The notes under the pieces were generated by a model, which made no database searches, was not told where the DNA came from, and saw only the letters and a program-made list of their open reading frames with translations. A program made the translations under genes and the position numbers. Shown here one piece after another: positions 3,338-61,814 of a stretch of DNA of 64,000 nt (position 1 is its first letter; every line of letters starts with the position of its first letter). Origin of the DNA: Acidobacteriota bacterium (GTDB taxonomy: Bacteria > Acidobacteriota > Blastocatellia > Pyrinomonadales > Pyrinomonadaceae); assembly GCA_025463135.1 (NCBI GenBank), contig JAOAPY010000038.1, positions 1 through 64,000 of the forward strand, read 5' to 3'.

Positions 3338-4672
3338 TTGGCTAAATCGATCAATAATCCAGGAGGGCACGCCCCGGTTGGCTATCTCGAATTGCTGCGG
3401 CGCAACCGCGGGTTTAGAAATCTCTGGTTGGGCCAGGTCGTCAGCCAGATGGGCGACTGGTTTGACACGATCGCCCTGTACACCATCATTTTGAATCTCA
3501 CGGGCTCAGGCCGAAATGTCGGTCTGCTGATGGTCGCGCGATTTGTGCCCAGCTTTATTTTTGGACCAATCTCGGGCGTGCTGGCGGATCGCTTCAGCCG
3601 GCGCACGATCATGATCCTTTCGGACTTGCTGCGCGCTGTCGTCGTACTTGGTTTTTTGTTTGTGCGGCGCGCCGATCAGTTATGGATGGTCTACGTGCTC
3701 ACCGTCCTGCAACTGATATTCTCGACCTTCTTTGAGCCGGCCCGCACTGCCGCACTGCCTTCAATTGTTTCTGATCGCGAGCTATTGCCGGCCAATGCGA
3801 TTTCCTCTGTGACGTGGTCGGCGATGTTGACGATCGGGGCCGCGATTGGCGGGGTGGTCGCCGGGGTCTTTGGGACGAACGCCGCGTTCGTGCTCGATTC
3901 GCTGTCTTACGTTCTATCCGCCGTCTTCATCGCCAGTATTCGTTTTCCCAAACGCCCGGCGCGCGAGAAATCAAAACTCTCAGTCGGCAAGGCCCTGGGA
4001 ATCACACAGACGGTTGAAGGCATGCGGTACGTGAAGCGCAGGCCGCGCGTGCTGGCGTTGCTCCTGGTCAAACCTGCCTGGGGTTTGGGCGGCGGCATAC
4101 TCACCCTGCTGGCAGTCTTTGGAGAAAAAATCTTTCCCGTGGGCCGCAGTACTGCCACCGGGATCGGCGTTTTGTTTGCGGCGCGCGGTATCGGCACGGC
4201 GGTGGGACCGATTGTCGCGCGACGGATCGCCGGCGAAAGCCGCATCCGCATGCAGGTGTCCATCGGCATCTCGTTCCTAATCGGCGGTGTGTTCTACATA
4301 GCTTTTGGCAGCTCCGGCAATTTCCTATTCGCGCTGTTGGTCCTGGGATTGGCCCATACCGGTGGCAGCATTCTCTGGGTTTTTTCCACCGTGCTGCTAC
4401 AACGCGGGGTCGAAGACAATTTCCGTGGCCGGGTATTCGCGGCTGAACTCGCACTGCTGACGCTGACGATGGCCGCATCCAACTATCTCACCGGCGAGAT
4501 GTTGGATCGCTTTGGCTGGTCGCCTCGGCTGGTGACGATTGGTATCGGAATTTTCTTCCTCGTTCCGGGAATTCTGTGGTTCGTCACCAGGCGTATGTGG
4601 GACCAGGGTAAGGAGGAACATCTCGAACGAGTGATGCCGGCAGAGCCAAAGCTGGAGACTGAAAGCGCGTGA
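3338..4672 (+). CDS. MFS transporter, EntS/MFS_3-type exporter
   Basis: 444 residues with about 12 hydrophobic segments and the features of the MFS_3 (enterobactin exporter-like) family: an N-terminal FRNLWLGQVVSQMGDWFDTIAL segment, and the loop motif GVLADRFSRR between TM2 and TM3, which is the MFS signature A. It acts in the cytoplasmic membrane as a proton-coupled exporter of a small molecule; the substrate is not evident. The TTG start at 3338 is preceded by AAGGA six bases upstream and no better ATG is available. It appears monocistronic, followed by a palindromic spacer. Confidence 0.82.
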   Translation: MAKSINNPGGHAPVGYLELLRRNRGFRNLWLGQVVSQMGDWFDTIALYTIILNLTGSGRNVGLLMVARFVPSFIFGPISGVLADRFSRRTIMILSDLLRAVVVLGFLFVRRADQLWMVYVLTVLQLIFSTFFEPARTAALPSIVSDRELLPANAISSVTWSAMLTIGAAIGGVVAGVFGTNAAFVLDSLSYVLSAVFIASIRFPKRPAREKSKLSVGKALGITQTVEGMRYVKRRPRVLALLLVKPAWGLGGGILTLLAVFGEKIFPVGRSTATGIGVLFAARGIGTAVGPIVARRIAGESRIRMQVSIGISFLIGGVFYIAFGSSGNFLFALLVLGLAHTGGSILWVFSTVLLQRGVEDNFRGRVFAAELALLTLTMAASNYLTGEMLDRFGWSPRLVTIGIGIFFLVPGILWFVTRRMWDQGKEEHLERVMPAEPKLETESA

Positions 4673-4674
4673 AC

Positions 4675-4798
4675 TTTGGTCTTTGGTCTTTGGACTTTGG
4701 TCTTTGGGCCTTTATCATGAGACAGCTTAGAATGACCGCCGCCGCGCGCACTATCAGGGGTCAAAGCCCAAAGACCGAAGGCCAAAGACCAAAGACCT
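4675..4798. repeat. Inverted repeat built of CTTTGG/CCAAAG units
   Basis: Directly after the MFS stop codon, a run of TTTGGTC and TTTGGAC units is answered about 60 bases later by CCCAAAGACC and CCAAAGACCAAAGACC on the same strand, forming an imperfect long hairpin. Similar CTTTG-rich hairpins lie at 20859-20954 and 31526-31650. It ends just before the next gene's start, so it may act as a transcription stop or RNA-stability element. Confidence 0.65.
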
Positions 4799-4807
4799 AA
4801 TTTTACA

Positions 4808-10778: not shown

Positions 10779-13220
10779 ATGCAACCAAACAAAATACGAA
10801 CCTTGATCGCCGCCTTCTGCTCGGTCTTCATTGTTAGCATTGGTGCCGGCTTCGGCAGCGAAGTTCCGGCCACAGGAACCATCGCAACCGCGGCGTCTTC
10901 TCAAATTCCCGCGCCGGAAGATGTGCTGAGCTTTCACCCCGGTGACGACCGTAAGCTGGCGAGCTGGCAAAAAGTTCTCGAGTATTTTCAAAGACTCGAC
11001 GCCGCGAGTGATCGAGTTCAGTTTGCTGAGCTGGGCAAGACGACAATGGGAGCGCCCTTTGTAATGGCAACCATCAGCGCGCCTGAGAACCTGGCGCGAC
11101 TCGATGAGTGTCGAAGCATTCAGGAACAGCTCGCCGACCCGCGCAAGCTTGGTCGCAACCCTGATGCGAAAGCGGCGGAACTGATCAAAAGAGGCAAGAC
11201 GATCGTCTTGATCACTTGTGGCATACACTCCACCGAAGTCGGTTCATACCTCTCGAGCATGCTCATCGCGCATCGTCTGGCTTCGTCGAATGATCCGGAG
11301 ATAAAGGAGATCCTCGACAACACGATCATCCTGCTGGTGCCCTCGCTGAATCCGGACGGCGTGGACATCGTGAAAAAGTGGTACGACAAAACTCTCGGCA
11401 CGCCCTATGAAGGCACGGACCCGCCGGAGCTTTATCACAAGTACACGGGCCATGATGACAATCGCGACTGGTATGCGTTTACCCAGGTTGAGACTCAGAT
11501 TACGGTAGATAAAATTCACAACGTCTGGCATCCGCAGATCGTCCACGACATTCATCAACAGGGCGAGTTTGGTTCGCGTCTGTTTCTGCCGCCGTACATG
11601 AAACCTGTGGAGCCAAACGTCCCGAAACAAATTGTCGAGGGCTATACCGAACTCGGAAACTACATGGCGCGGGAAATGCGCGCCGCCGGATTCAAAGGGA
11701 TAACGACGGATTCGACCTATGACGCCTGGTCACCGTCACGCGCGTACTCGCATTATCACGGCGGCGTGCGCATCCTGTCGGAGACTGCGTCGTGCCGACT
11801 TGCTACGCCAATCAACGTCAAGTTCGATCAATTGCGTCCCGGCGAAGGTTACGATCCGCGCAAAGTGGCCGCGAATTTCGGTCCCGTGTGGCAAGGCGGC
11901 GAGTGGCACATTCGCGACATCACCAATCACATGACCTCGGCAGCTCTCTTTTTGCTAAAGCACGCCGCGCAGAACCGCGAGCAGTGGCTCCAGAGATTTT
12001 ATGAGATTGGAATAGAGGCAGTGCGTAATCGCAGGAGGGGTGAACTGACCGCTTTGCTTGTTCTGCCTTCAGCAAGCGAACAAAGATTTACTAATTTATT
12101 GGGAGCAAAAAGCTCGGACCATCTTCTGGGAATCCTGGAGACCGGCGCCGTGGAAACTGAGGCAACCCGTCGCTTCGTCCTGCAAGGAAGAGTCTACCCG
12201 GCCGGCACCGAAGTCATCTCCATGAATCAACCTTATTCGGCATTTGCCAGGGCCCTGCTCCAGGTGCAGCGCTATCCTGATTTACGAGACGCTTTGGGCA
12301 AACCGATCGCGCCTTACGATGTTACAGCGCATACGCTTTCGTTACTGATGGGGGTCGAAGTCAAGCCTGTGTTTGGGCCTATCCATTATGCGAAGTTGCA
12401 GACAGAACCGCAGGGCAGGAATGGCGGCTGTGGGGATGGAGCGCTGCGCGGAGTTTACCGATCGCATGTTCCGTCAATGGATGAAGGGTGGACCCGTTGG
12501 GTGCTTGATAAGCAGGGATGCACGAATTACGTTGCGCTGGAAGATCGCGAGGTACGAGCCGGGAATCTACGGCAGAAGTTCGAATCGATCGTAATTCCTG
12601 ATCAATTGCCGGCCTCGATTCTCACCGGATATAAATCCGGAACGATGCCATCGGAATATGTTGGAGGCCTCGGTGAAAAGGGGGTCAAGGCTTTGCGCGA
12701 GTTTGTGGAGCAAGGCGGCACGGTTGTTTGTTTGAATCGTGCTTCCGACTTTGCGATCGATCAATTCAAACTGCCGCTGCGTGATGTGGTGGCGGGTTTA
12801 CCGCACACAGAATTCTATGTTCCCGGATCAATCCTGCGCCTTGCGCTCGACACTTCAAATCCCATTGCCGCCGGCATGTCCAAAGAATCAGTTGCCTGGG
12901 CCGAAGATTCGCCCGTGTTCGAAGTGTTGAGTGTCACGCGAGCGTTAAGTGGCACCGGCGTCTCGCCCGTGGGCGTTCGCGACAAGCACGCCAACATCGG
13001 CGAGACGCCGATGCCACAAGTACACGTCATCGGCTGGTACCCGAAGGACAAAGATCCTTTGCTTTCCGGCTGGCTGTTAGGCGGTGAACGTATCAAGGGC
13101 AAAGCCGCGCTTGTCGAAGTCACTCTGGGCGAAGGCAGCATCATTCTCTTCGGCTTTCGGCCCCAATACCGTGGTCAATCCATCGCGACTTATCCGCTAT
13201 TCTTCAAAGCGATTCGTTAG
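10779..13220 (+). CDS. Secreted M14-family zinc carboxypeptidase-like protein
   Basis: 813 residues starting with a signal-like hydrophobic stretch (about 8-25). The M14 zinc site is visible as HSTE (H150-xx-E153) in ITCGIHSTEVGSYL. The later HDIHQQGEFGSRLFLPP segment probably supplies the third zinc ligand and substrate contacts, and LVPSLNPDGVD is the usual M14 strand. The C-terminal half (from about 560) has a glutamine-amidotransferase-like look (SILTGYKSGTMPSEYVGGLGEKG ... FVEQGGTVVCLNRASDF). An in-frame 69-bp palindromic element encodes about residues 724-746 (see findings). It is likely periplasmic or secreted and trims peptides. Divergent from the OPT transporter. Confidence 0.85.
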   Translation: MQPNKIRTLIAAFCSVFIVSIGAGFGSEVPATGTIATAASSQIPAPEDVLSFHPGDDRKLASWQKVLEYFQRLDAASDRVQFAELGKTTMGAPFVMATISAPENLARLDECRSIQEQLADPRKLGRNPDAKAAELIKRGKTIVLITCGIHSTEVGSYLSSMLIAHRLASSNDPEIKEILDNTIILLVPSLNPDGVDIVKKWYDKTLGTPYEGTDPPELYHKYTGHDDNRDWYAFTQVETQITVDKIHNVWHPQIVHDIHQQGEFGSRLFLPPYMKPVEPNVPKQIVEGYTELGNYMAREMRAAGFKGITTDSTYDAWSPSRAYSHYHGGVRILSETASCRLATPINVKFDQLRPGEGYDPRKVAANFGPVWQGGEWHIRDITNHMTSAALFLLKHAAQNREQWLQRFYEIGIEAVRNRRRGELTALLVLPSASEQRFTNLLGAKSSDHLLGILETGAVETEATRRFVLQGRVYPAGTEVISMNQPYSAFARALLQVQRYPDLRDALGKPIAPYDVTAHTLSLLMGVEVKPVFGPIHYAKLQTEPQGRNGGCGDGALRGVYRSHVPSMDEGWTRWVLDKQGCTNYVALEDREVRAGNLRQKFESIVIPDQLPASILTGYKSGTMPSEYVGGLGEKGVKALREFVEQGGTVVCLNRASDFAIDQFKLPLRDVVAGLPHTEFYVPGSILRLALDTSNPIAAGMSKESVAWAEDSPVFEVLSVTRALSGTGVSPVGVRDKHANIGETPMPQVHVIGWYPKDKDPLLSGWLLGGERIKGKAALVEVTLGEGSIILFGFRPQYRGQSIATYPLFFKAIR
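12949..13017. repeat. In-frame palindromic element inside the M14 peptidase gene
   Basis: The arm GTGGCACCGGCGTCTCGCC is answered by GGCGAGACGCCGATGCCAC 30 bases later. The whole element is 69 bp, exactly 23 codons, and adds the segment SGTGVSPVGVRDKHANIGET plus a few residues. The same family lies between genes at 22568-22646. Confidence 0.8.
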
Positions 13221-20858: not shown

Positions 20859-20954
20859 CTTTGTACCTGGTTCTTTGTACTTTGTTCTCGCGTTGTCTTT
20901 GAAACGGACCCGCCTGCAGCGAAGCACAAAGGACTAAGATCAAGGAACAAAGTT
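20859..20954. repeat. CTTTG-type inverted repeat between the PhnP-like and DUF1844 genes
   Basis: TTTGTACCTGGTTCTTTGTA followed by CTTTGTTCTCG is answered by AGCACAAAGG and CAAGGAACAAAG near 20924-20952. It is the same style of hairpin as at 4675-4798 and 31526-31650. Confidence 0.55.
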
Positions 20955-22567: not shown

Positions 22568-22646
22568 GTGGCGCGGGCGTCCCGCCCGTGAATCTTCCCA
22601 AGAGGCTTGACGCCACGGAATCACTGGCGGAGACGCCCGTGCCACA
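22568..22646. repeat. GTGGCGCGGGCGTC palindromic repeat after mazG
   Basis: GTGGCGCGGGCGTCCCGCCC and GGCGGAGACGCCCGTGCCAC face each other across about 40 bases. This is the same family as the in-frame element at 12949-13017; a half copy (CGGCACGGGCGTCCCACCCG) follows the M2 peptidase gene at about 58470. Confidence 0.7.
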
Positions 22647-31393: not shown

Positions 31394-31525
31394 TTTTGTA
31401 TTGACGGGGCTCTCTTACCCGCCCGGATGCCGCGGAATAATTAACGCCGGCCTCACTGGAATAATGTCAAAATCCACATTCGCTTCCTGGCTGCGAACAC
31501 CGTGAGTGTAACATAGACTGGAAAT

Positions 31526-31650
31526 CTGTTCTTTGTACTTTGTACTTGGTTCTTTGTTCGTTGTTCTTCTTAGTTTCCGTTGAATGGCTCAACTATGATA
31601 ACTAATGCAAAGATCAAAAGAACCAGGTACAAAGATCCAAATACAACGAT
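31526..31650. repeat. CTTTG-type inverted repeat upstream of folK
   Basis: TTCTTTGTACTTTGTACTTG then GTTCTTTGTTCG is answered by GCAAAGATC, AAAAGAACCAGG and TACAAAGATCC. It is the third copy of the hairpin style found at 4675-4798 and 20859-20954. It explains the spurious open frame running into folK from upstream. Confidence 0.6.
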
Positions 31651-32514: not shown

Positions 32515-32669
32515 TCTCATTCTCACCCGGCTTAACCGGGTGATATACGAGGCCTTTGGACAGGAACCGTTTCGACGGTTTCTGATGTGCCCGGCTGAAG
32601 GTAAACCGTTGAAACGGTTGCGCAAACAGAAAGCCGCCGAGCACCCGGTGGAAAACGGGTGAGAATGAA
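32515..32669. repeat. Triple-hairpin repeat, copy 1 (ACCCGG/CCGGGT family)
   Basis: Outer ends TCTCATTCTCACCCGG and CGGGTGAGAATGAAAT are inverted copies. Each end also folds locally (ACCCGGCTTAACCGGGT; ACCCGGTGGAAAACGGGT). Inside are two more short hairpins, AACCGTTTCGACGGTT and AACCGTTGAAACGGTT. The same layout recurs at 47408-47590 and 55675-55836. Confidence 0.85.
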
Positions 32670-32864
32670 ATGAAGAGAGCCCGGCGGACGTTCCGGAGTT
32701 TTGACTCACCTCTTCGCAATGGACTCTTCGCTGCTCTGTTACTTTCCCCTTTTCCGAACTTTCCCGTTATAATAGTCGCCCTTGTTAAGCCAGGCCTTGT
32801 ACATCACCATGCTTTCCAGTTCGGCGGCATCTCCGCCCAAGCCCTACGACCAGGGAGCAAAGCC

Positions 32865-47385: not shown

Positions 47386-47407
47386 AGGCTGTGGATCTCA
47401 TGAGCCA

Positions 47408-47590
47408 AGGGCCTTTATCTCATTCACACCCGGTTTCAACCGGGTCACTGGGGAGCATCTTCTGATTTTCCAACCGTTTCAAGGGTTCCTGATTTTCTAA
47501 GGAGTGAGTAAACCGTTGAAACGGTTAAGCGGGATTTCCGTTCCGCTGATCACCCGGTTGAAACCGGGTGAGAATGAGAGAGAGGCCCTT
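47408..47590. repeat. Triple-hairpin repeat, copy 2 (ACCCGG/CCGGGT family)
   Basis: Outer arms AAGGGCC and GGCCCTT surround TCTCATTCACACCCGG and CCGGGTGAGAATGAGA. ACCCGGTTTCAACCGGGT and ACCCGGTTGAAACCGGGT fold at the two ends, with AACCGTTTCAAGGGTT and AACCGTTGAAACGGTT in between. It sits between the binding-protein gene and the ATPase gene of one ABC transporter. Confidence 0.88.
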
Positions 47591-55544: not shown

Positions 55545-55907
55545 CTCTGTCCTCGACGATTGATGAATGCAAGCAGAGCTCAGTCATTCAACTCGATCCG
55601 TTGACTAATGTAAATATCGGGGGTGAAGACGGAGGCAAGAGAACCGAAGTGCGGTAAGCATGTTTGGAAAAACATCTCATTCTCACCCGTGGTGATACCG
55701 GCGCCTTGGCCATTTGATGTTCGAACCGTTGCAACCATTTTCGATTGAATGGGCGGGAGGGTAAACCGTTGAAAACGGTTTTTGGAAATAGGAAAGGCCG
55801 CTGATCACCCGGTTGAAACCGGGTGAGAATGAGAGGAGGAATTCTTCAGATGGCAATCTGTAGCTTTCACACGGAACCTCTGCTGCTCTCATTCCGAGTG
55901 TGCGGGG
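55545..55907. other. Intergenic region holding triple-hairpin repeat copy 3
   Basis: 363 bases between the MBL gene (minus) and the next minus-strand gene. It contains the repeat at 55675-55836 and nothing else recognisable. Confidence 0.6.
55675..55836. repeat. Triple-hairpin repeat, copy 3 (ACCCGG/CCGGGT family)
   Basis: TCTCATTCTCACCCG opens and CGGGTGAGAATGAGAG closes it; ACCCGGTTGAAACCGGGT folds at the right end and AACCGTTGAAAACGGTT near the middle. The left internal hairpin is degraded (ACCCGTGGTGATACC), so this copy is the most decayed of the three. Confidence 0.85.
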
Positions 55908-58671: not shown

Positions 58672-58806
58672 CATGAAGTCAGTACCACCTCGCGGTAGCG
58701 GGTGGGTAAGTGATGGAGCAGCTATTACGCCGAGAGGATCTAGTTGTGCCCAGCGATCTTGTTGGGAGCAGACCCACCCGCTACCGCGTGGTGGTACTGA
58801 CCTCAT
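58672..58806. repeat. Composite palindromic unit, copy A (GGTAGCGGGTGGGT family)
   Basis: ATGAAGTCAGTACCACCTCG then CGGTAGCGGGTGGGT is answered by ACCCACCCGCTACC then GCGTGGTGGTACTGACCTCAT. The 65-base interior (AAGTGATGGAGCAGCTATTA onward) recurs with few changes at 61558-61691, on the other side of the sigma-54 activator gene. Confidence 0.85.
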
Positions 58807-58855
58807 TGCGTTTGAGCGAGCTACGATTGGTAAATGAGATAAGTAGGGAGAGAAA

Positions 58856-60775
58856 TTATGAGGTCTTAAAACGGTGTCGGTTAATACCGAGTTTCCTGAT
58901 CTTTGATTCGAGCGTCTGCCGAGGGATGCCCAGCTTGGTGGCGGCGCCCGCCGGGCCGGAGACGAGTCCCTCCGCCTCGCGCAGTGCGGTCTCGATCATT
59001 TCTTTTTCGTGGTCTATAAGGTTCGCTACCAGGGGAACACTCGACGCGGCAGGCTTGGGAGTAACCGGCGTTAGCCAGGTCTGATCTACAGAAAAGGTGT
59101 CCCCATCGCTCAGTATCACGGCGCGTTCGATTACATTCTGCAACTCGCGAACGTTGCCCGGCCAGTCGTAAGTCTGGAACAGCTCCAGGGTCCCCTTATC
59201 TATGGTTCGAAACTTTTTCCCGGCTGCTTGGGCGTAACGATCGATCAGGTATTCGACCAACAACGAAATGTCGTCGACACGCTCACGCAGGGCCGGTATT
59301 CGAATCGGGAAGACATTGAGGCGGTAAAACAAATCCTGCCGGAAGGTGCCCTCAGCTACGGCTGCATTCAGGTCCTCATTTGTAGCCGCCAGCACTCGTA
59401 CGTCAACCTGGACTGTTTGACTTCCACCCACTCGTTCGAATTCCCGTTCCTGCAGAACTCGTAACAACGCAACCTGTGTCTCCGGTGGGAGTTCGCCAAC
59501 TTCGTCGAGGAAAATCGTTCCTCCATCAGCCGATTCAAAGCGTCCGAGACGCCGCTGAAATGCTCCTGTGAAGGAACCCTTTTCGTGGCCGAAAAGTTCG
59601 GAGGCAACCAGCGCCGGCGGAATAGCCGCGCAGTTCACTCGAATGAAGGCGCGGGTCGAGCGCTTGGACAGATTATGAATCGCGCGCGCAATCAATTCTT
59701 TTCCGGTCCCGGTCTCACCTAATATCAGGACTGTAGAATCAGTGGGCGCCACCTTTGACACTTGCGTCAGCACCTGGCGCAGTCCTTCGGACGAGCCAAC
59801 GATTTCTTCGAACATCGAAGAGCGTTCGATTTCTTCTCGTAACGCGACGTTTTCGTTTCGCGTCCGGTCTTCGGCCCGCTTTCGATCGTCGATGTCGGTT
59901 CCCGTGGCATACCAGCGGACGAGGTGTCCTTGTTCGTCATGGAACGGGTTGTAACGGATCAAGAACCAACGATACTGGCCATCCTTCCTCAGTGCGCGTT
60001 GTTCGATTTCGAAAGGCAGGCCGCGTGCAAGGGCCGCCTGGCGTTCCTCCCGCAACCTCGCGAGGTCTTCCGGATGAAAGATCTTTTCGCGAAAGTCTGA
60101 TGCAAACACATCTTCCATGGTGAGTCCGGCATAGTCGAGCACTGCCTGGTTCGCGTAAATCGGAGAGCCGTCCGGCCCCTGGACGATAATGGTCTGGGGT
60201 ATGGCGTCGGTTATTCGGCGAAGCTCCCGTTCGTCTTGGCGCAACTTCTCGTCTGCCCGCTTTCGGTCCTCGATGTCGGTATTGGTTCCATACCATCGGA
60301 GAATCTCGCCGGACTCTTCTTGCAAAGGTTCTACTCGGATGAGGAACCAGCGGTAGTCTCCATCGCGGCGACGAAGCCGCGCTTCGATCTCGCCTCCTGC
60401 TCCGGAAGCTAACAGCGACCGCCACTGGTCCAGCCACTTGGGCAGGTCTTCGGGGTGAATCGCGACTTTACACCCCACGCGCTTCACCTCTTCTTGAGAC
60501 AGACCCGTGTAGTCAGACCATCTCCGGTTAACAAAGTCGTTGGAGCCATCCGACAAGTTGCACCACGCCAGCGTTGGAATCGTGTCGATGATCTTTCGGA
60601 GCCGCGCCTCCGATTTCTTCGCCTCGTTGTACGCCTTCTCTAAGTCCTCTCGGCTTTGGTACTGCTTGGACACATCGCCATTCTGTTGCTCTGCGGACGA
60701 GAGCATTTCAGACTCATCCACCTTTTCCGCATGGGCCATGGCGGCTGTTTTGTGATGAGACTCCGGCGCGTTCAT
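58856..60775 (-). CDS. PAS-PAS sigma-54-dependent transcriptional activator (Fis family)
   Basis: 639 residues. Two PAS/PAC domains lie at about 40-170 and 175-295, each ending in a PAC-like segment (RWYGTNTDIEDRKRADEKL and RWYATGTDIDDRKRAEDR). The AAA+ core begins near 318, with Walker A GETGTGKE, the sigma-54-contact loop GSFTGA (Ser in place of the usual Ala), Walker B FLDEVGE and the R-finger region. A Fis-type HTH closes the protein. It senses a small signal through PAS and activates sigma-54 promoters; no target is obvious. Flanked on both sides by copies of the same composite repeat. Confidence 0.9.
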   Translation of the reverse strand: MNAPESHHKTAAMAHAEKVDESEMLSSAEQQNGDVSKQYQSREDLEKAYNEAKKSEARLRKIIDTIPTLAWCNLSDGSNDFVNRRWSDYTGLSQEEVKRVGCKVAIHPEDLPKWLDQWRSLLASGAGGEIEARLRRRDGDYRWFLIRVEPLQEESGEILRWYGTNTDIEDRKRADEKLRQDERELRRITDAIPQTIIVQGPDGSPIYANQAVLDYAGLTMEDVFASDFREKIFHPEDLARLREERQAALARGLPFEIEQRALRKDGQYRWFLIRYNPFHDEQGHLVRWYATGTDIDDRKRAEDRTRNENVALREEIERSSMFEEIVGSSEGLRQVLTQVSKVAPTDSTVLILGETGTGKELIARAIHNLSKRSTRAFIRVNCAAIPPALVASELFGHEKGSFTGAFQRRLGRFESADGGTIFLDEVGELPPETQVALLRVLQEREFERVGGSQTVQVDVRVLAATNEDLNAAVAEGTFRQDLFYRLNVFPIRIPALRERVDDISLLVEYLIDRYAQAAGKKFRTIDKGTLELFQTYDWPGNVRELQNVIERAVILSDGDTFSVDQTWLTPVTPKPAASSVPLVANLIDHEKEMIETALREAEGLVSGPAGAATKLGIPRQTLESKIRKLGINRHRFKTS

Positions 60776-61178
60776 AAGTTTCCCATCCTCAACTCTTGCT
60801 GCATAGATTCTGCGGCACTTCTATTGGAATTCTTCATGATTTGTGAACCGACATTAACAAATACCCACTCCTAAAAGCCGTTTGGTGACTCTACTTTCGC
60901 TTTACTAGAAGAAATCCAACATATTAAGTATCTATCAAGACTGCTCAATGATACCTCCAAACGCGGCATTGACCATCATCCGAGGGCCACCAAATCCGGA
61001 CCACATTTATCCCACTACCCGATTTTTCGGAATGAGTCAGGCCACAGAGACGGACGTTTTAGATTCAGCATAAGAATTGAAACGGACTTGGAAGTGAATC
61101 TCAAGTTGATCGAAGCCTGCCTTTCTAACTCTGAAGTGCGAAGCTGAATCTGACAGGAGACAGGCACGATGCGGTCCC

Positions 61179-61528
61179 ATGAGGTCAGTACCACCACGCG
61201 GTAGCGGGTGGGTTCTGGAATGGAATTGAGACCGATTGAGCATGAACGCAATGGACCCACCCGCTACCGCGTGGTGGTACTGACCTCATTGTCCGCCGCG
61301 TGAGTGTCTGCGATGGGGACCCACCCGCTACCGCATGGTGGTACTGACCTCATGGATCCGCCGCGTGAGTGTCTGCGATGGGGACCCACCCGCTACCGCG
61401 TGGTGGTACTGACCTCATACTGCCAATCCGACGGACCTCACGACCCGCGTGGTGGTCCTGACCTCATTGCCTTCGAAGAGGTGCGAGTGGGGTGATGAGG
61501 TCAGTACCGGGAGCGGTAGTGACCGGGT
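61179..61528. repeat. Array of GGTAGCGGGTGGGT-family units
   Basis: Forward copy at about 61179-61213; inverse copies at about 61254-61289, 61319-61353 and 61383-61418; a partial inverse copy at about 61442-61468; and a divergent forward copy at about 61495-61528. The units around 61290-61420 are spaced by near-identical GTCCGCCGCGTGAGTGTCTG-like sequence, so part of the array arose by tandem duplication. Confidence 0.8.
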
Positions 61529-61557
61529 CTCGTAAGCGATCTGTGACCGTCGGCATT

Positions 61558-61691
61558 ATGAAGTCAGTACCACCTCGCGGTAGCGGGTGGGTAAGTGACG
61601 GGGCAGCTATAACGCCGAGAGGATCTAGTTGTGCCCAGCGATCGTGTTGGGAGCAGACCCACCCGCTACCGCGTGGCGGTACTGACCTCAT
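61558..61691. repeat. Composite palindromic unit, copy B
   Basis: The same 134-bp composite as at 58672-58806. By eye it differs at about five positions (for example GATGGAGCAG versus GACGGGGCAG, CGATCTTG versus CGATCGTG and GTGGTGGTAC versus GTGGCGGTAC). Both copies point the same way and flank the sigma-54 activator gene. Confidence 0.85.
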
Positions 61692-61814
61692 GGGTCCGCT
61701 CGTTGTAGTAAGGGCCTGTGCTCAAACCGCATCACTATTGTTCTCGTTATATAAATAACTGGATCACAAAAGAGCGGTTCAGAGGTCAATAAAGTTTCTT
61801 CTGCCATGATCCCT

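Follow-up and report, generated by a model that had tools for sequence, protein, structure and literature searches.

A GTGG-tagged palindromic repeat in frame in an M14 peptidase gene, at a loop shared with unrelated palindrome families in Blastocatellia

The M14 gene and its palindromic element

The stretch of DNA analysed here (the window) is 64,000 nucleotides long and belongs to a genome of 6.48 Mb (G000), placed in the Pyrinomonadaceae, Acidobacteriota, by its named relatives. The forward strand carries, at 10779-13220, an open reading frame for an M14 zinc carboxypeptidase-like protein of 813 residues (PF00246, E 1e-18), whose best structure matches are carboxypeptidase folds. Near the 3′ end of this gene, at exactly 12949-13017, there is a near-perfect inverted repeat of 69 nt, with coding signal on either side of it and the reading frame open throughout. 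The repeat folds as RNA at -50.1 kcal/mol (z = -8.1), which was equalled by none of 200 shuffles, so that the palindrome reported here by a first-pass annotation is real. The stretch encoded here is SGTGVSPVGVRDKHANIGETPMP, and the element accounts for part of S724-Q747. The earlier description of it as exactly 23 codons is right for the length, but the phase is one base off: the element starts at the second base of codon 724 and ends with the first base of codon 747.

The element consists of two REP units in inverted orientation, both of which fit the degenerate family pattern with no mismatches. The left unit, GTGGCACCGGCGTCTCGCCCGTG, lies on the forward strand at 12949-12971, consists of a GTGG tag and a hairpin, and reads GTGVSPV. 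It is followed by a spacer of 23 nt (12972-12994), and then by the right unit, GTGGCATCGGCGTCTCGCCGATG, on the reverse strand at 12995-13017, which reads GETPMP on the gene strand. The in-frame GTGVSPV...GETPMP segment that had been proposed for the C-terminal part of the protein is thus present. The unit of the family, in the form GTGGCACGGGCGTCTCGCCCGTG or a close variant of it, has a GTGG tag with an 8-bp hairpin directly after it (CACGGGCG-TCT-CGCCCGTG, loop of 3 nt). The stem has one mismatch in the left unit of the M14 gene and none in the right. REPs are defined by a GTAG or GTGG tag that lies 0-2 nt from a hairpin with a stem of 7-20 bp and a loop of 2-5 nt (PMC6006769), and the M14 unit, with its tag 5′ of the hairpin, falls within the GT[AG]G superfamily of this definition. 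By its anatomy, the element is a GTGG-tagged REP doublet, or REPIN. A sibling of 79 nt lies between genes at 22568-22646, starting just past a stop codon; sequence, fold and a left unit that matches the pattern place it in the same family, as the first-pass annotation had stated.

The predicted structure of the M14 protein has a pLDDT of 83 overall but of about 41 over residues 721-741, which are modelled between two strands near the C terminus of an otherwise well predicted protein. The model contains three internal segments with pLDDT below 50, of which the insert is the longest. The loop that bears the insert is therefore probably disordered, as far as the model can tell.

Copies of the element across the host genome

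A search of the host genome with the 23-nt unit, allowing up to two mismatches, gave 116 forward and 109 reverse matches, 225 in all, spread over many contigs; the reversed control gave 0 and 0. The family is thus of high copy number and dispersed. Its units are characteristically paired: in a sample of 76 neighbouring pairs, 45 were head-to-head inverted (+-), with 15 in the order -+ and 16 on the same strand. The doublets usually measure 95-97 nt from end to end, and sometimes form tandem arrays. By length they fall about equally into the three phases (14, 17 and 14), which implies that the fit to the reading frame acts as a filter on which copies survive and is not inherent in the element.

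It had been suggested that the genome be scanned for the element in other coding genes. In a sampled census of about 100 of the 225 units with their neighbours, making up roughly 60 clusters, about six clusters (some one in ten) lie inside reading frames with coding signal on both sides, so that the family is mostly extragenic. The genes concerned encode the M14 protein, EgtB (TIGR03440), a kinase-aminotransferase fusion, an NRPS, a VWA protein and a membrane protein, and hence at least five genes besides M14 hold the element within their reading frame. The copy in EgtB reads SGMGVPPM...HAQDAHAT. In four of the host's genes with a left unit in sense orientation, the phase used is the one that reads GTGVxPV and not the arginine-rich ones, which is suggestive, though the numbers are small. 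At a further locus (L208, G000:C37:72341) a REP unit provides the final codons and the stop of a sugar-nucleotide epimerase-like reading frame. It is worth adding that automatic annotation of many proteins will meet peptides such as GTGVSPV...HAQDAHAT, and that these are derived from the repeat and are not domains.

Unrelated palindromes in one loop

The 23 residues are absent from the distant homologues of the M14 protein, in Gemmatimonadota, Bryobacterales and Armatimonadota. In these phyla the loop is short and of nearly fixed length, with eight or more extra residues in 0 of 52 proteins, and in the closer homologues (52% identity or more, almost all from Blastocatellia, and largely from metagenome-derived assemblies) it carries eight or more in 20 of 57. 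Only one relative, G058, has the family of the window element at this position, as an insert of 18 residues. It shares with the window insert not only the family but also the right flank, CCACAAGTA, and from the sequences the two may descend from one insertion. The first-pass annotation had predicted that most relatives would lack the residues, and had named their presence in distant genera as the mark of ordinary protein sequence; such a presence was looked for, and the distant homologues are without them.

It is striking that the same loop holds other palindromes. A strong DNA hairpin is found there in 15 homologues, and by sequence these hairpins fall into seven families, assigned partly by eye. 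The family of the window element is F1, GTGGCACGGGCG. The others are, like it, repeated in the genomes that carry them: F2, GGGAGCGCGGGCG, has 39-83 matches in its carriers' own genomes; F3, TGTCAGAACCRCC, has 65 in the genome of L077; F4, GGAACGCAGGCTGCC, has 58 and 32 in its carrier genomes; F5, GTTACGCCTTCAGGCGT, has 26 in the genome of L068 and one only in that of L070; and F6, AGACAAGAGACAGGAG, has 39. For F7, TTTGGAGTCCCGGC, there are only four. At least six further palindromic repeat families, unrelated in sequence, thus share the loop of the window element in other Blastocatellia.

The loop stands out from the rest of the gene. Among 114 M14 genes, 15 inverted repeats lie at this loop and 28 at all other positions together; codon-shuffled versions of the genes contain 16-22 in total. 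The other length-variable loops of the protein were considered as repeat sites and rejected, since their inserts are ordinary, with 0 of 44 being palindromic or unusually folded (Fisher p 3e-10). On a quick tree of the homologues, the family labels require 14 changes, and presence or absence requires 10. In a single genus (g3), G058 has F1 in the loop and both G029 and G052 have F2, an alternation which implies that its content was replaced or gained more than once. We note also that at one locus of this genus (L066, G029:C8, about 191770) the F2 REPIN in the loop bears a second, nested palindrome, GGTCCCCAGCGGGGCAGCCCCGCTGGGG.

The window itself contains further repeats of this general kind. 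About nine copies of a 35-nt palindrome-forming repeat, ATGAGGTCAGTACCACC..GCGGTAGCGGGTGGGT, lie on both strands at 58672-61700, and this repeat looks like F3, which other genera have in their M14 loop. There are more dispersed palindromes at 32565-32676, 47407-47590 and 55794-55840 (AACCGTTTCAACGGTT; ACCCGGTTGAAACCGGGTGAGAATGAGA). Arrays of the 7-mer CTTTGGTCTTTGGTC with inverted partners are found at 4669-4806, 20859-20888 and 31524-31581, in a style similar to that of the F6 repeat.

Routes into the loop and comparison with known systems

In G052 the gene directly downstream of M14 is a REP-associated tyrosine transposase (RAYT; NF047646) with F2 REPINs on both its sides, and the M14 loop of this genome holds an F2 REPIN as well. 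For F2 in G052 there is therefore a RAYT flanked by REPs of its own family. Homologous RAYTs adjoin the M14 gene in G009 and G033, where the loop contains decayed F2-like residues, and a RAYT remnant is found in G047. F2 is the only loop family with an adjacent RAYT, and together these observations make a strong circumstantial case for RAYT-driven copying as what fills the M14 loop in this sub-clade. It is worth adding that in G052 (L046, 1110-4351, G052:C345) the M14 reading frame is split near its 5′ part into two overlapping reading frames, ahead of the REPIN-flanked RAYT, and this split could reflect either a fault in the assembly or genuine decay.

Adjacency to a RAYT was rejected as a general cause of the inserts, being confined to the F2 sub-clade: with 35 Y1 queries, none was found beside the other genes with inserts. 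At one locus (L084) an IS200-like gene lies downstream of M14, yet the loop has no insert. The host genome of the window has six Y1_Tnp genes, two of which score above the RAYT cut-off, and none of the six is closely flanked by F1; a RAYT flanked by F1 GTGG REPs was likewise not found in three close relatives, G058, G052 and G029. One candidate in the host genome (L141/L176, G000:C29:82844) is an IS200-type TnpA gene bordered by CGTCGC hairpins of its own, and an array of GTGG REPINs lies 0.8 kb off. It was rejected as the cognate transposase of F1, given that it is of IS200 type and has different end hairpins, with the REP cluster 0.8 kb away.

We consider it likely that palindromes of the RAYT type repeatedly enter a permissive loop of the M14 protein, predicted to be disordered, and are retained only when they are in frame. 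The GTGG REPIN would belong to the non-autonomous mobile repeats that RAYTs (also called TnpA-REP) copy, and would have landed in a surface loop under little structural constraint, which from the model should be able to accept extra residues. The M14 gene would have stayed unbroken, and the insert been kept, because its length fits the frame and because the REP reads free of stops and rich in glycine, proline, serine and valine. Unrelated REPIN-like families would have entered the same loop again and again across Blastocatellia, probably aided in the F2 sub-clade by the RAYT and its REPINs directly downstream. This explanation draws directly on the REPIN anatomy, the copy number, the absence from distant homologues, the recurrence at one site, the RAYT adjacent in relatives and the predicted disorder of the loop; from these we infer transposition by a RAYT, the neutrality of the insert and the order of events.

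Tolerance by itself may be an incomplete account, because there are more palindromes at the loop than expected from their intergenic density. Across 31 related loci, the density of strong inverted repeats is 0.5 per 10 kb in the other long reading frames and 7.7 per 10 kb outside them, and the M14 genes of these loci contain 10, nearly all in this loop. As a rough figure, a site of 30-100 nt would be expected to contain 0.7-2.4 palindromes over the 31 loci at the intergenic density, and about 9-10 are seen; the size of the target is a judgement, and the gene was selected post hoc. This is a hint of targeting, or of one palindrome taking the place of another. A possible, though less likely, explanation is that insertion is directed to the loop, making it a genuine hot spot and a landing pad shared by unrelated mobile hairpins over the history of the class. 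Y1 transposases might be drawn to single-stranded DNA there, or a palindrome already in place might be the preferred target, to be replaced by the next family. The alternation of F1 and F2 within genus g3, the nested palindrome at L066 and the adjacent RAYT in one sub-clade would all be in keeping with this. However, the families at the loop share no sequence, so that one enzyme would not be expected to recognise them all; most of the relatives that lack an adjacent RAYT have inserts all the same, and the edges of the inserts differ by several codons.

If instead the hairpin were kept for a role in the mRNA, either slowing ribosomes before the last strands fold or protecting the 3′ part of the message, then any palindrome would serve. 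This agrees with a hairpin being the one thing that the unrelated sequences have in common (their folds range from -35 to -87 kcal/mol), and with its fixed position near the 3′ end of the gene. We regard such a role as improbable, given that the loop is short and free of hairpins in most homologues, including all of those from distant phyla and many close ones, and that in L034 and L038 the F2-like copies have kept their residues while their folds are no longer out of the ordinary. Recruitment of the added peptide for a function of the protein is more doubtful still. The GTGVxPV phase, used in four genes of the host genome and also in G058, might be read in its favour, but purifying selection alone predicts a stop-free and arginine-poor phase; moreover, the peptides of the different families have nothing in common, and the insert is predicted to be disordered (pLDDT about 41). 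Finally, an ordinary protein sequence that happens to be palindromic in its DNA would account for the intact, coding frame, and is ruled out for practical purposes by the 225 dispersed copies of the unit and the absence of the residues from distant homologues.

The window element is close to several known systems. The REPIN and REP sequences of Pseudomonas, E. coli and Stenotrophomonas, with their RAYT or TnpA-REP enzymes (PMC3116915, PMC6006769), have the same GT[AG]G tag beside a short hairpin, the same inverted doublets, hundreds of dispersed copies and tandem REPIN arrays. Unlike these systems, some copies of the window family lie within protein genes, and a matching transposase was not found in the host genome. 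REPs in frame are also described inside tnpA-REP genes themselves (subclass 2.4; PMC6006769); there too the host gene is unbroken, whereas here it is a metallopeptidase and not a transposase.

The first-pass annotation had likened the element to the Rickettsia palindromic elements, which are in-frame palindromic repeats in protein genes, kept as extra residues. The likeness holds for insertion in frame without breaking the gene. It does not extend to the anatomy, which is that of a GT[AG]G REPIN, whereas RPE-4 and RPE-6 are members of the superfamily with the CGTC tag (PMC3733652, PMC6006769). Membership in the Rickettsia elements is thus unsupported both by the tag, which is GTGG, and by the host, which is one of the Pyrinomonadaceae and not rickettsial.

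A close precedent comes from Di Nocera et al. in 2013, who reported intragenic, or 'decorating', REPs of the GTAG and CGTC types, RPE-4 and RPE-6 among them, for instance in uvrA of Opitutus terrae and recB of Xanthomonas (PMC3733652). Like the window family, these are monomers or dimers in frame in coding genes, adding 20-30 residues, and two Xanthomonas species have different REPs at about the same site in recB (PMC3733652). REPs inside genes were already known, from Opitutus, Thauera and Rickettsia, and the single M14 element is a further case of a known phenomenon. What is unusual is that, across a class, many families have come to occupy one and the same loop again and again. Compared with the REPs of Di Nocera et al., the present ones are in a new phylum, so that REP-in-gene insertion is extended to Acidobacteriota, and in new genes, with one loop used by seven or more unrelated families in many genera and, in one sub-clade, a RAYT beside the gene. 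The M14 loop also provides, at a single site, a naturally occurring set of successive insertions, together with unoccupied loops, copies in decay and a transposase next door, in which the target choice of REPINs and the way that such repeats turn into protein sequence become testable.
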